From a virus, in the IMG/VR virus record IMGVR_UViG_3300025543_000111, positions 1-33,519 of that record: a stretch of 33,519 nt of DNA; one strand, 5' to 3'. A program made the position numbers and the translations under genes. This document shows, in pieces, positions 1,307-12,465 of the stretch. The notes beneath the pieces are model-generated. The model was given only the letters and a program-made list of their open reading frames with translations. It was not told where the DNA came from and did not search any database. The first letter of the stretch is position 1. Every line of letters starts with the position of its first letter.

Positions 1307-2080
1307 TTGGGGTACACTTTAGAGAATCAACTAGCCTTAGAGATGGAGATGCTCAACGCTGGTGTTGACAGGTTCAACAAGGAAAAGGATAAGGGTATAG
1401 ACAAGGGGCGTGAGTCCACCACACTACACGGCAGGACTATCATTGCTACAGTGGTAGCAGGTACAGCGCAGGGTGTGGAAAGACTACAGACTACACCGAC
1501 TAGCAACAGAGACATAGCCTATAAGAAACTGTCAGGCATGGATGCACAGAAGGTAGCATACCTAGCACTAGTGTCTATGGTTGATGGTATCAGCAAGGCT
1601 AACACGCTAATGAATGTAGCAAAGTCTATCGGTGCTAACGTAGAGATGCAGGACAGGCTAGAGAAGTGGATCAAGTTAGAGGGTAGTGTTGCTCGTAACA
1701 CAATCAAGAAGGCTAATGAGAAGGGTGCTGTTGCTAGACGCTACGGCCTCACACACAAGATGAACAAGGATGGCTATGGTGACCTAGCTTGGAGTAAGGA
1801 AGAGCGTATCCATGTAGGCCTGAGGCTCGTTGACTGCATCATCCAGAACACAGGCATCGTTAGGTTAGAGAAGCAGCATACAAGTAGGAACAAAACGACT
1901 ACGTTCCTGAGGGCTACACCTATCACTGAGGAGTGGGTATCTGCCTTCAATGACCACATGTCTACCACTCGTCCACGTTGGTCTCCATGTATCATAGTAC
2001 CTAAGGACTGGACAGATGTTGAGGGTGGTGGATACTATGGAGAGTTCTTGGATAAACTACCAATCGTAAGAAGGGGATAA
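1307..2080 (+). CDS. T7-type RNA polymerase, N-terminal part (first of two frames)
   Basis: 257 residues that line up along their length with the T7 RNA polymerase N-terminal region, including an IHVGLR segment (T7 IHVGVR), the NTGIVRL segment and the GGGYY/LPIVR segment. I chose TTG at 1307 because AAAGGGGG lies seven bases upstream; GTG at 1289 keeps the same frame but has no such signal. The frame stops at TAA 2078-2080, ahead of the template-binding R-x-R motif and all catalytic residues, and the next frame begins one base later. Alone it could not catalyse transcription. Either it pairs with the downstream protein as a two-subunit enzyme or the two are one gene interrupted by a frameshift. 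Confidence 0.85.
   Translation: MGYTLENQLALEMEMLNAGVDRFNKEKDKGIDKGRESTTLHGRTIIATVVAGTAQGVERLQTTPTSNRDIAYKKLSGMDAQKVAYLALVSMVDGISKANTLMNVAKSIGANVEMQDRLEKWIKLEGSVARNTIKKANEKGAVARRYGLTHKMNKDGYGDLAWSKEERIHVGLRLVDCIIQNTGIVRLEKQHTSRNKTTTFLRATPITEEWVSAFNDHMSTTRPRWSPCIIVPKDWTDVEGGGYYGEFLDKLPIVRRG
1311..1323 (-). promoter_or_regulatory. inverted copy of the candidate phage promoter core
   Basis: Read on the minus strand this is TCTAAAGTGTACC, identical over 13 bases to the motif at 3733 and 12450. It lies in the first codons of the RNA polymerase gene and would direct transcription leftward, antisense to the early genes. An exact 13-base match in 33.5 kb on two strands is unlikely by chance (about one in a thousand), but coding sequence can carry such a match without function. 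Confidence 0.3.
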
Positions 2081-2081
2081 G
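2071..2081 (+). promoter_or_regulatory. ribosome binding site and one-base frame change between RNA polymerase halves
   Basis: AAGGGG (2071-2076) lies five bases before the ATG at 2082, so the second half could be translated independently or by coupling to the TAA at 2078-2080. The same four-G run is the point where the frame changes: with three Gs the two frames would read through as R-D-K-M-I-H-H with no stop. Confidence 0.6.
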
Positions 2082-3731
2082 ATGATACACCACATGAACA
2101 AGCTGCGAAAGCAGGACTTATCTCAAGAGTTTGCTTGTCTTAACACACTGCAACACACACCGTGGCAGATCAACCAGCCTGTGTTAAGCATTGTTAGACA
2201 GGTGTGGGATAGTGGACAGGAGTGGGCAGGTCTACCAGCTAGGACAGACAGACCACTACTAGCCTACCCATTCAGCAAGGAACCAGCAGAGATGAACGAT
2301 GCTGAACGTGCAGAGTTTAAGAACTGGTCAAGGAAGCGTAACGAAACCTATGCCTACAACAACAAGACAGTAAGCAAGCGCATCCAGATTGAGCGTACAC
2401 TACAGACAGCAGAACGATACGCAAGGTATGATGAGTTCTACTATGTATGGCAGAATGATTTCAGGTCACGCAAGTATGCTAACAGTACGTTCATGTCACC
2501 TCAGTCTGCTGATTGGAGCAAGGGACTGTTGACATTCAAGCGAGGCAAGGCTATCAACAACTGGCATGACGCACGTTGGTTGTGTATCCATGGTGCTAAC
2601 CTGTATGGTAACGACAAGATCACACTAGACCAGCGCGAGGGCTGGGCGTGGGACAATGCAGATGAAGTCAAACGTGTAGCAGATAACCCATATGATAATA
2701 CATGGTGGCTGGACGCTGACAAGCCATGGCAATTCCTTGGCTGGTGTATAGAGTTTGCTGGCCTAGTCAAGCAGGGCTGGGGGTATGTGTCACACCTGCC
2801 TACGTCTGCTGATGGTAGCTGCAATGGACTGCAACACCTGTCTGCTATCCTTCAGGATGCTAAGGGTGGTAAGGCTACCAACCTGATACCTGCTGACCTG
2901 CCTCAAGATATCTATACTGAGGTAGCAGAGGGAGCATCACAGTCTATTGGTAGGCTGGCTAATGAGGGTGACATTTTAGCCAAAAAAATTATGGAGTTTG
3001 GTATCAATCGCACACTCACCAAAAGACCAGTGATGATTGTCCCATACTCAGGCACACTACACGCATGTAAGGGCTACATCCATGAGGCTATACAGGATAG
3101 GGTAGAGAAGGGAGAGCCTAACATCTTTGGTGATGACATGTTCAAGGCTAGTGTCATGCTGTCTATCCATGTATGGGATGCTATCAATGGTGTCATTGAG
3201 TCAGCAAGGCAGGTGATGGACTACGTTAAGGATGTTGGTGCTGTCTATGCACAACACAACAAGCACATGCAGTGGGTCACACCTACTAACTGGCTGGTCA
3301 TGCAGAACTACCATGACGTAGACAAGAAGCGTATCAAGACACACATCAATGGCAACCTGTTGCAGTTAGTATTCAACAGTGACGTTGAGAACACAGTGAG
3401 TAAGAAGCGTACTGCATCAGGGGCTAGCCCTAACTTCATACACTCTATGGATGCAGCAGCTATGACTAAGACTATCAACAGTAGTAAGAGGGAAGGCATC
3501 AATGACTTTGCCATGGTGCATGACAGCTACGGCACACACAGTACTGACATGCCACGCCTGTCTCAGATACTACGCGAAGAGTTTGTAAAGATGTATACAG
3601 AACATGATGTGTTGACAGAGTTAAGACAACATGCTACTGTTGTACTAGGTACTGAAGATGTACCGCAACCACCAGCGAAGGGTACGCTAGACCTGAATAA
3701 GATACTGAACTCACAGTACTTTTTCGCATAG
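2082..3731 (+). CDS. T7-type RNA polymerase, catalytic part (second of two frames)
   Basis: 549 residues matching the C-terminal two thirds of single-subunit phage RNA polymerases. Visible landmarks: DFRSR near residue 130 (T7 DWRGR), the ADGSCNGLQH motif with catalytic Asp244 (T7 Asp537), RTLTKRPVM with Lys314 and Tyr322 (T7 Lys631, Tyr639), ASPNFIHSMD, and VHDSYGT with catalytic Asp481 (T7 Asp812). It ends in YFFA, like the FAFA end of T7. Together with the upstream frame it gives about 806 residues, against 883 in T7, with no residues missing at the join. All catalytic residues are present, so the enzyme is probably active and transcribes the middle and late genes. Confidence 0.9.
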   Translation: MIHHMNKLRKQDLSQEFACLNTLQHTPWQINQPVLSIVRQVWDSGQEWAGLPARTDRPLLAYPFSKEPAEMNDAERAEFKNWSRKRNETYAYNNKTVSKRIQIERTLQTAERYARYDEFYYVWQNDFRSRKYANSTFMSPQSADWSKGLLTFKRGKAINNWHDARWLCIHGANLYGNDKITLDQREGWAWDNADEVKRVADNPYDNTWWLDADKPWQFLGWCIEFAGLVKQGWGYVSHLPTSADGSCNGLQHLSAILQDAKGGKATNLIPADLPQDIYTEVAEGASQSIGRLANEGDILAKKIMEFGINRTLTKRPVMIVPYSGTLHACKGYIHEAIQDRVEKGEPNIFGDDMFKASVMLSIHVWDAINGVIESARQVMDYVKDVGAVYAQHNKHMQWVTPTNWLVMQNYHDVDKKRIKTHINGNLLQLVFNSDVENTVSKKRTASGASPNFIHSMDAAAMTKTINSSKREGINDFAMVHDSYGTHSTDMPRLSQILREEFVKMYTEHDVLTELRQHATVVLGTEDVPQPPAKGTLDLNKILNSQYFFA

Positions 3732-3732
3732 T

Positions 3733-3748
3733 TCTAAAGTGTACCTCT
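3733..3748 (+). promoter_or_regulatory. candidate phage RNA polymerase promoter before the SSB gene
   Basis: TCTAAAGTGTACCTCT, starting two bases after the RNA polymerase stop and ending 30 bases before the SSB start. An identical 16-base copy lies at 12450, just before the structural block. Identical motifs in two intergenic positions ahead of major transcription blocks are what one expects of promoters for the phage-encoded polymerase. The transcription start base cannot be read from sequence alone. Confidence 0.6.
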
Positions 3749-3778
3749 AGCCTAACTAACCATCGTAAGGAGTACGAT

Positions 3779-10236: not shown

Positions 10237-10559
10237 GCATGGACTTTAATGACTACCAACAACGAGCCAACGAGACTGCTATCTATCCAGAAGAGTACAA
10301 GCTTACCTATCCTACCCTTGGCCTAGCTGGTGAAGCAGGTGAGGTAGCAGAGAAGGTAAAGAAGATTGTACGAGATGGTAAAGATATTAAAGCTGAGGCA
10401 CATGAGATTGCCAAGGAACTAGGCGATGTGCTATGGTATATAGCAGCAGTAGCTAGGGATATTAACTATAGTCTACAAGTTATAGCTGCCATGAACATAC
10501 AAAAACTAGAGAGCCGCAAGGAACGTGGCGTACTACAAGGGAACGGAGACAATAGATGA
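10233..10559 (+). CDS. MazG-like nucleotide pyrophosphohydrolase
   Basis: 108 residues, the length of a single MazG domain. The metal-binding acidic pattern is visible: GLAGEAGEVAEKVKK (Glu34, Glu37, Glu40) and KELGDVLWY (Glu62, Asp65). Such enzymes hydrolyse (d)NTPs to the monophosphate and pyrophosphate; phage versions may recycle host nucleotides or clear non-canonical ones. ATG 10233 overlaps the previous stop; ATG 10239, seven bases after GAGGA, is an alternative start. It overlaps the reductase gene by four bases. Confidence 0.88.
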   Translation: MSMDFNDYQQRANETAIYPEEYKLTYPTLGLAGEAGEVAEKVKKIVRDGKDIKAEAHEIAKELGDVLWYIAAVARDINYSLQVIAAMNIQKLESRKERGVLQGNGDNR

Positions 10560-12454
10560 GTAGCAATTACCTACCAACAGACTACCAAACATTCATTGCT
10601 ACTAGCAGATATGCACGATGGCTAGAAGAAGAGAACAGGCGAGAGACTTGGCCTGAGACAGTGCAGCGATACATCAACTACATTGCTACTACTGGTCTTC
10701 CAGTTAAAGACCTAGAAGATATTGAGGAAGCTATCATCAACCTTGAGGTGATGCCTAGCATGAGAGCCTTGATGACAGCAGGGGTAGCAGCAGACCGTGA
10801 CAACACCTGCATCTACAACTGTAGCTACCTACCAGTGGATCACATCCGTGCCTTTGATGAGGCTATGTTTATCCTACTGTGTGGCACTGGTGTTGGCTTC
10901 AGTGTGGAGCGTCAGTCTATTGTTAAGCTACCTGATGTACCTGATGCACTAGACATGAGTGATGATATCATTGCAGTTAAGGACAGCAAGGAAGGTTGGG
11001 CTAGGGCTTTGCATAAGCTACTATCACACCTATACTCAGGTGACATTCCTAAGTGGGACTTGTCTAAGATCAGACCAGCAGGTGCTAGGCTCAAGACCTT
11101 TGGTGGTAGAGCCAGTGGACCTGAGCCACTTGATGACTTGTTCAAGTTTGTTGTGGCTAAGTTCAAGGCAGCAGCAGGACGTAAGCTGACTAGTATTGAG
11201 TGTCACGATATCATGTGTAAGATCGGTGAGGTTGTAGTAGTGGGTGGTGTACGCCGTTCAGCTATGATTAGCTTATCTAACCTAAGTGACGGACGCATGG
11301 CTCACGCCAAGTCAGGTAGCTGGTGGGAGAACGAAGGTCAACGTGCGTTGGCTAACAACTCAGTAGCCTACACAGACAAGCCTGACATGGAAGGGTTCAT
11401 GCGTGAGTGGCTATCCCTAGTGGAGAGTAAGTCAGGTGAGCGTGGCATCTTCTCACGTGTAGCAGCAGACAATCACGTTAAGATGAATGGACGCAGAGAG
11501 ACAGGACATGAGTGGGGTACTAACCCATGCTCTGAGATCATCCTACGCCCATACCAGTTCTGTAATCTAACAGAGGTAGTGGTACGTGAGAGTGATGATC
11601 TTGAAAGTCTACGCCGTAAGGTACGACTAGCTACTATCCTTGGTACTGCACAGTCTACCTTTACTAAGATGCCATACTTGCGTAAGATTTGGCAGAAGAA
11701 TACTGAAGAAGAGCGTCTACTTGGTGTCTCATTGACAGGCATCATGGACAATCCTGTACTATCTAAGACTGTTGATAGCCCTCGCTGGTTACAAGAGTTG
11801 AAGGTACAGGCTATTGATGTCAACCGTGTCTATGCTGACAAGCTAGGTGTTACTGCTTCTACTGCTATCACCTGTGTCAAACCATCTGGTACTGTATCGC
11901 AGCTTACTGATACAGCTTCTGGTATTCATGCACGGCACAGCGAGTACTACATCCGTACTGTACGTGGAGATAACAAAGACCCACTGACACAGTTTATGAA
12001 GGACAGTGGTATCCCTTCTGAACCATGTGTGATGAAGCCAGACTCTACTACAGTGTTCAGCTTCCCTACTAAGTCACCAACAGGTGCTGTTACTCGTAAC
12101 GATATGACTGCACTACAGCAGCTAGAACTGTGGAAGAACTATGCCCTTAACTTTTGTGAACACAAACCATCTGTGACTATCACAGTCAAGGATGCAGAGT
12201 GGATGGCAGTAGGTGCGTGGGTGTATGAGAACTTTGACATATGTTCAGGCATCTCATTCCTACCACACAGTGACCATTCATACGCACAGGCTCCATATCA
12301 AGACATTGATAAGGAAACTTACGACAAGCTTAAGGAACAAATGCCAGCCTCAATTGATTGGGCAGCGTTGTCCTTGTATGAGAAGGAAGATACTACATCA
12401 GGCAGTCAGACATTAGCCTGTACAGCAGGTGCTTGTGAGTTAGTAGATATCTAA
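10556..12454 (+). CDS. class II (adenosylcobalamin-dependent) ribonucleotide reductase
   Basis: 632 residues, monomeric type resembling the Lactobacillus leichmannii ribonucleoside triphosphate reductase. It converts ribonucleotides to deoxyribonucleotides for phage DNA synthesis. Key cysteines: Cys85 or Cys89 (NTCIYNC) in the N-terminal half; Cys325 with Glu327 in NPCSEI; Cys336 in YQFCNL, exactly 11 residues later as in the Lactobacillus enzyme (408/419); and a C-terminal redox pair Cys622/Cys627 (CTAGACE), spaced five as in 731/736. No intron or intein is apparent. CGGAG precedes the ATG. Its stop codon overlaps the candidate promoter at 12450. Because it needs B12, it works only in a host that makes or imports cobalamin. 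Confidence 0.93.
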   Translation: MSSNYLPTDYQTFIATSRYARWLEEENRRETWPETVQRYINYIATTGLPVKDLEDIEEAIINLEVMPSMRALMTAGVAADRDNTCIYNCSYLPVDHIRAFDEAMFILLCGTGVGFSVERQSIVKLPDVPDALDMSDDIIAVKDSKEGWARALHKLLSHLYSGDIPKWDLSKIRPAGARLKTFGGRASGPEPLDDLFKFVVAKFKAAAGRKLTSIECHDIMCKIGEVVVVGGVRRSAMISLSNLSDGRMAHAKSGSWWENEGQRALANNSVAYTDKPDMEGFMREWLSLVESKSGERGIFSRVAADNHVKMNGRRETGHEWGTNPCSEIILRPYQFCNLTEVVVRESDDLESLRRKVRLATILGTAQSTFTKMPYLRKIWQKNTEEERLLGVSLTGIMDNPVLSKTVDSPRWLQELKVQAIDVNRVYADKLGVTASTAITCVKPSGTVSQLTDTASGIHARHSEYYIRTVRGDNKDPLTQFMKDSGIPSEPCVMKPDSTTVFSFPTKSPTGAVTRNDMTALQQLELWKNYALNFCEHKPSVTITVKDAEWMAVGAWVYENFDICSGISFLPHSDHSYAQAPYQDIDKETYDKLKEQMPASIDWAALSLYEKEDTTSGSQTLACTAGACELVDI

Positions 12455-12465
12455 AGTGTACCTCT
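12450..12465 (+). promoter_or_regulatory. candidate phage RNA polymerase promoter before the structural block
   Basis: TCTAAAGTGTACCTCT, identical over all 16 bases to 3733-3748; the bases after it (TAGC here, AGC there) are also similar. It overlaps the reductase stop codon (TAA 12452-12454) and ends 20 bases before the next gene. The position, at the change from metabolism to structural genes, is where T7-like phages place a promoter for the phage polymerase. Confidence 0.6.

Follow-up and report, generated by a model that had tools for sequence, protein, structure and literature searches.

Two adjoining genes for the halves of a T7-family RNA polymerase in a clade of uncultured marine phages

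T7 RNA polymerase (RNAP) is the textbook example of an RNA polymerase made of one protein. Among known enzymes, the closest to the one described here is RNAPII of phage N4, a two-polypeptide enzyme whose chains, products of neighbouring genes, correspond to non-overlapping portions of T7 RNAP (PMC4496689). T7 RNAP itself tolerates bisection at five surface seams (PMC4299498), and when cut between residues 301 and 302, within a flexible loop, it is active once light-driven partners join the halves (PMC13304687). A 33,519-base virus record from IMG/VR, IMGVR_UViG_3300025543_000111 (possibly incomplete; the whole stretch is called the window below), carries two adjoining genes that we assess, with a probability of about 0.91, to encode two subunits of a single T7-family RNAP, synthesized as separate proteins that form a heterodimer. 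T7-like RNAPs are characterized by a single polypeptide, whereas two open reading frames (ORFs) were found at all 127 distinct junctions of the clade to which the window belongs.

The two RNAP ORFs lie in different reading frames, one running from a TTG at 1307 to a TAA ending at 2080 and the other from an ATG at 2082 to 3731, as read directly from the sequence. The features of the locus are as follows.

1293–1299, + strand: Shine–Dalgarno (SD)-like AAGGGGG of the N-half gene, 7 nucleotides (nt) upstream of TTG 1307 (read directly)
1307–2080, + strand: gene for the N-terminal (promoter-binding) subunit, 257 amino acids (aa), TTG start and TAA stop, matching PF14700 (RPOL_N) and T7 RNAP residues of about 34–300
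2071–2076, + strand: SD site AAGGGG of the catalytic-half gene, within the end of the N-half gene; duplex energy in the window −7.2 kcal/mol
2078–2084, + strand: junction TAA-G-ATG, comprising the N-half stop (2078–2080), a one-base spacer and the catalytic-half start (2082)
2082–3731, + strand: gene for the catalytic subunit, 549 aa, ATG start, matching PF00940 (RNA_pol) and T7 RNAP residues 301–883
3733–3752, + strand: promoter-like motif TCTAAAGTGTACCTCTAGCC, directly 3′ of the catalytic half, in the position of T7 phi1.1A and kept in relatives

The N half matches PF14700 with 45.2 bits (curated cut-off 30.1) and positions 5–266 of the 816 positions of phrog_414, and the catalytic half matches PF00940 with 350 bits (curated cut-off 22) and phrog_414 positions 272–816. 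In the alignment with T7 RNAP, the N half ends at T7 residue 300 and the catalytic half begins at residue 301 (±1–2 residues), so that the halves jointly span T7 RNAP without a gap at the split. The downstream 549-aa protein comprises the whole catalytic domain, with thumb, palm and fingers. The start of the N half is best set at TTG 1307, because relatives show ATG-G-Y-(T/S)-L-E at this point. An earlier preliminary description of the window had reported the two frames, the stop at 2078–2080, the start at 2082 and the lack of missing residues relative to T7, all of which are borne out by direct reading and by the alignment. Its further observations also hold in the sequence: one base fewer in the four-G run gives a continuous R-R-D-K-M-I-H-H across the junction, and five bases separate the ribosome binding site AAGGGG from ATG 2082, with SD energies (below) in its support.

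The position of the split distinguishes the locus from N4. N4 RNAPII (gp15/gp16 heterodimer, PDB 6dt7) shares with the clade enzyme its two polypeptides, their non-overlapping T7 parts and their neighbouring genes, but is cut after the thumb and the DX2GR motif and before motif A, approximately 160 residues past the split of the clade. N4 gp16 (6dt7_B) accordingly aligns only with residues 419–807 of a joined model of the window's halves, and the DFRSR of the window lies within the catalytic half, at residue 126, rather than at an N4-type boundary between DX2GR and motif A. N4 RNAPII comprises 673 aa with a truncated N-terminal domain, whereas the window encodes 257 + 549 = 806 aa with a full N-terminal domain (T7 residues of about 34–300). 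The comparison with N4 made in the preliminary description is thus apt as an analogy, although the N4 enzyme is split elsewhere. N4 also has a companion virion RNAP of approximately 3,500 aa; in the 33.5-kb, possibly incomplete window, no ORF exceeds 1,123 aa.

T7 and the single-chain Autographiviridae RNAPs (CRP-804, Pasto and HTVC031P) share with the clade both domains, the tested catalytic residues and the overall fold, and an RNAP gene just 5′ of the gene for single-stranded DNA-binding protein is common to the clade and its single-chain relatives in marine phages. The single-chain Autographiviridae isolates differ in encoding one polypeptide, the nearest being 36–42% identical in the catalytic half. 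Engineered split T7 RNAPs comprise fragments divided at residues 67, 179 and 601 and the optogenetic 301/302 split; the natural split of the clade (T7 residue of about 300/301) falls in the same loop as the latter (PMC13304687). Unlike the engineered versions, it is natural, without fused dimerization domains, and lies between adjacent genes with a built-in SD site.

Relatives were drawn from IMG/VR contigs, and removal of duplicates left 127 distinct split junctions with catalytic-half identities of 51–100%; the 118 listed split loci represent 100 different IMG datasets. All clade relatives containing both halves share the position of the split (T7 residue of about 300/301; 127/127 distinct junctions), and no fused member of the clade was found among the IMG/VR relatives having both halves. 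The geometry of the junction, by contrast with its position, varies: 13 stop/start classes occur, including +2 spacers, with the second gene in frame 2 in 95 junctions, in frame 1 in 17 and in frame 0 in 15. A four-base NTGA overlap is present in 77 junctions, a TAATG type in 15, the +1 spacer of the window in 15 and an in-frame stop with a three-base (+3) spacer in 13, with 7 of other types. The halves are separated by 975 nt in locus L122 and by 211 nt in locus L111, with small ORFs inside; in L122 several of these (up to 98 aa) occupy positions 2002–2980. By this comparison, the gene split is real and inherited. The preliminary description had suggested asking whether close relatives contain one frame or two, and the two genes found at all 127 junctions uphold a natural split. 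It had also regarded relatives with three Gs and a single continuous frame as decisive against such a split: no clade relative is fused, and the sole three-G match to the junction in IMG/VR falls in a contig of 109 kb, of which the 15 kb examined lacks any match to RNAP.

The second start carries its own translation signal. The SD duplex energy there has a median of −6.4 kcal/mol, compared with −2.2 kcal/mol at internal ATGs (p = 1e-67, a value that is descriptive only, as the sequences are related). At the position of T7 R298, 122 of 127 split genes have AGG or AGA as the arginine codon, compared with 46% of arginine codons elsewhere in the same genes, whereas 0 of 78 fused genes use AGG/AGA there, with AAG, AAA or CGN in its place. 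In the split lineage, then, the end of the first gene came to contain a ribosome binding site. The G run of the window is an SD site and not the cause of the split: other lineages without a four-G run are still split and keep an SD-like AGGAG, AGAGG or GAGG motif instead.

These observations suggest a mechanism in which the upstream gene would supply the promoter-binding domain and the downstream gene the catalytic domain as separate subunits. With the SD site of the catalytic half inside the end of the first gene, a ribosome finishing the first protein could start the second at once (translational coupling), which would yield near-equal amounts of both halves; these would then associate into a T7-like enzyme transcribing the phage’s own promoters. 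Translation of the second gene is probably coupled to that of the first, and the two proteins probably form a heterodimer; we infer coupling, equal stoichiometry, assembly and activity from the features described here.

The window and four diverse members of the split clade each have equivalents of the six T7 residues D537, R627, K631, Y639, H811 and D812. The ratio of nonsynonymous to synonymous substitution rates (dN/dS) is approximately 0.14–0.18 in both halves when the window is compared with its nearer relatives, and about 0.10–0.19 in both halves across non-saturated pairs, being lower in a few very divergent pairs, so that each half is under purifying selection. The window encodes one PF00940 protein, its only RNAP, and in each of 11 relative records, mostly of approximately 40 kb, a single N half and a single catalytic half are the only members of the family. 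The catalytic residues and dN/dS values indicate a working enzyme.

In AlphaFold2 (AF2) models, the N half alone was predicted with a mean predicted local distance difference test score (pLDDT) of 85.9, its last 35 or so residues being poorly defined (62, 74, 74 and 48 per block). When the halves were joined into a proxy chain by taking AGAA as a single codon, with an alignment of 53 fused relatives, the mean pLDDT was 92.6, and the N-half tail, at 86–97, was confident only in this joined form, although the alignments behind the two models differ in make-up. Because of this dependence on joining, the tail is a good candidate for the subunit interface. The proxy folds as T7 RNAP (1msw, root-mean-square deviation of 2.8 Å over 776 residues; Z scores of 45–48 against T7 elongation complexes), with the join in a loop flanked by a short strand on one side and a helix on the other. 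Foldseek placed the models nearest to elongation-state T7 structures, a state that AF2 may simply favour.

Maximum-likelihood analysis of catalytic halves (quick search; 109 rows without N4, 38 of them split) places the split rows in one clade, with a Shimodaira–Hasegawa-like approximate likelihood ratio test (SH-aLRT) value of 100 and a long stem (0.55). Its sister rows, namely CRP-804 and loci of Maritalea and Aminobacter, are fused, as are 86 relatives outside the split clade, which comprise 67 bacterial-genome loci, two contigs from IMG/VR and phage entries in GenBank (T7 among them), almost all from cultured phages in the last case; among classifiable bacterial-genome RNAP loci, 67 of 68 are fused. 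The split clade apparently has a single origin, and its nearest relatives, being fused autographivirid-type RNAPs, suggest a splitting event separate from that of N4. A tblastn search of GenBank phages with three members revealed no isolate of the clade (best identity 42%). The substitution G640S beside the catalytic tyrosine was considered as a mark of the split clade and rejected, being present also in fused CRP-804 and Aminobacter (L288). In Devosia enhydra (L311, 3015–3991), a distantly related RNAP is interrupted approximately 20 residues earlier, with an ATGA overlap, which may represent a second, independent split or a frameshift.

Several points weigh against the assignment of a heterodimer. 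The 127 junctions are linked by descent and are not independent events, and the case for assembly and activity is drawn from sequences and models. The engineered 301/302 split relied on fused dimerization domains, so that spontaneous assembly of the clade’s halves is argued by analogy; the joined proxy, a single chain modelled on an alignment of fused relatives, says nothing on binding in trans.

An unlikely further reading is that the free N subunit acts as a separable specificity and elongation factor, produced in its own amount and exchangeable among related phages, in which case a multi-subunit enzyme would have evolved from the single-subunit family. It would be a natural counterpart of the alpha and sigma fragments built from T7 RNAP. 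Also unlikely is an arrangement of separate proteins without an obligate 1:1 heterodimer, in which the N half would be sigma-like, act in initiation only or be present in excess, and leave in elongation. In keeping with this, the N half is predicted to fold confidently alone except for its tail, and in the transition from initiation to elongation the corresponding domain of T7 RNAP rotates and is refolded (PMC3961267); the small ORFs parting the two genes in L122 and L111 indicate that strict coupling is not always needed. Against it, almost every member has its two genes side by side or overlapping, which favours balanced synthesis.

Programmed frameshifting or readthrough, giving a joined polymerase with or without separate halves, is very improbable. 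In the window, the two frames would be united by a +1 shift near AGAAGGGGATAA, but the shift required varies by lineage (frame 1, frame 2 or an in-frame stop), relatives share no conserved slippery sequence, and an SD-like site accompanies almost every second start. Because all three frame relations and gaps of 211 or 975 nt between the halves occur, no single frameshift or readthrough event would join all junctions. The same varied stop/start geometry, frames and gaps therefore rule out an assembly error and leave a programmed frameshift strongly disfavoured.

A sequencing or assembly error, by which an extra G in the four-G run broke a single-chain gene, has a negligible probability. The exact contiguity of the window’s halves, which one base fewer would join, is what such an error would leave, but the identical 19-base junction is found in six IMG/VR contigs, distant relatives are split identically without the G run and with other spacers and frames, the three-G version is confined to a stretch of one contig that shows no RNAP, and the separately selected SD site and overlapping start codons are confined to the split clade. 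The argument for error that the preliminary description drew from the homopolymer and the contiguity thus fails on the lineages that are split without a G run. Of the three options it had left undecided, the uniformly split relatives settle the matter in favour of two separate proteins, and error and programmed frameshifting are both rejected. A lone error looks different: in locus L045 (G006, a 40-kb record), a frameshift at approximately 4870 inside the catalytic half is shared by no other examined record and is probably an isolated error or mutation. Decay of the gene into inactive remnants, for which nothing beyond the interruption itself speaks, is equally remote given the intact catalytic residues, a dN/dS near 0.15 for each half, the lack of a second RNAP and clade-wide conservation down to a catalytic-half identity of about 51%.

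The heterodimer reading supposes promoters that the enzyme would recognize. The promoter-like motif TCTAAAGTGTACCTCT has a 15-base core with two exact copies in the window (3733–3752, + strand; 12450–12464, + strand), one just 3′ of the RNAP genes and the other just past the ribonucleotide reductase gene, before the structural-gene region. A homologue (for example, TTCTAAAGTTGACCTATAGCC) lies a few nucleotides past the RNAP stop in most split relatives. The motif is probably the cognate phage promoter, and TTCTAAAGTGTACCTCTAGCC is a putative promoter sequence for the split RNAP. In the subclade of the window, inverted copies of a 13–22-base motif bracket the RNAP operon (window 1311–1323, − strand; 3733–3745, + strand); the left copy overlies the start of the N-half gene, and the left and right copies vary together. 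The inverted-motif score is at least 11 in 73 of 104 loci, compared with 1 of 300 shuffled controls. Autoregulation or a divergent promoter is possible.

Downstream of the RNAP genes, further ORFs on the + strand include a DNA polymerase 49% identical to that of the autographivirid CRP-227. A class II (adenosylcobalamin-type) ribonucleotide reductase is encoded at 10556–12454, with 70% identity to Roseobacter phages CRP-4/5 and 69% to Lentibacter phage ICBM2. The identities of these two proteins point weakly to a marine alphaproteobacterial host.

For Autographiviridae and marine phages outside the N4-like group, the open-licence literature yielded no report of a T7-like RNAP in two parts, and a review of N4 describes how heterodimeric RNAPs arose, and what advantage they bring, as still unclear (PMC4496689). 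Because its sister lineages are fused and it apparently arose once, the clade makes testable the question of why a single-chain polymerase splits. It also carries a warning for annotation, in that an RNAP gene found split in a viral contig is not necessarily an assembly error. An uncultured marine phage clade with a two-protein RNAP would, in addition, offer many natural subunit pairs for synthetic biology.
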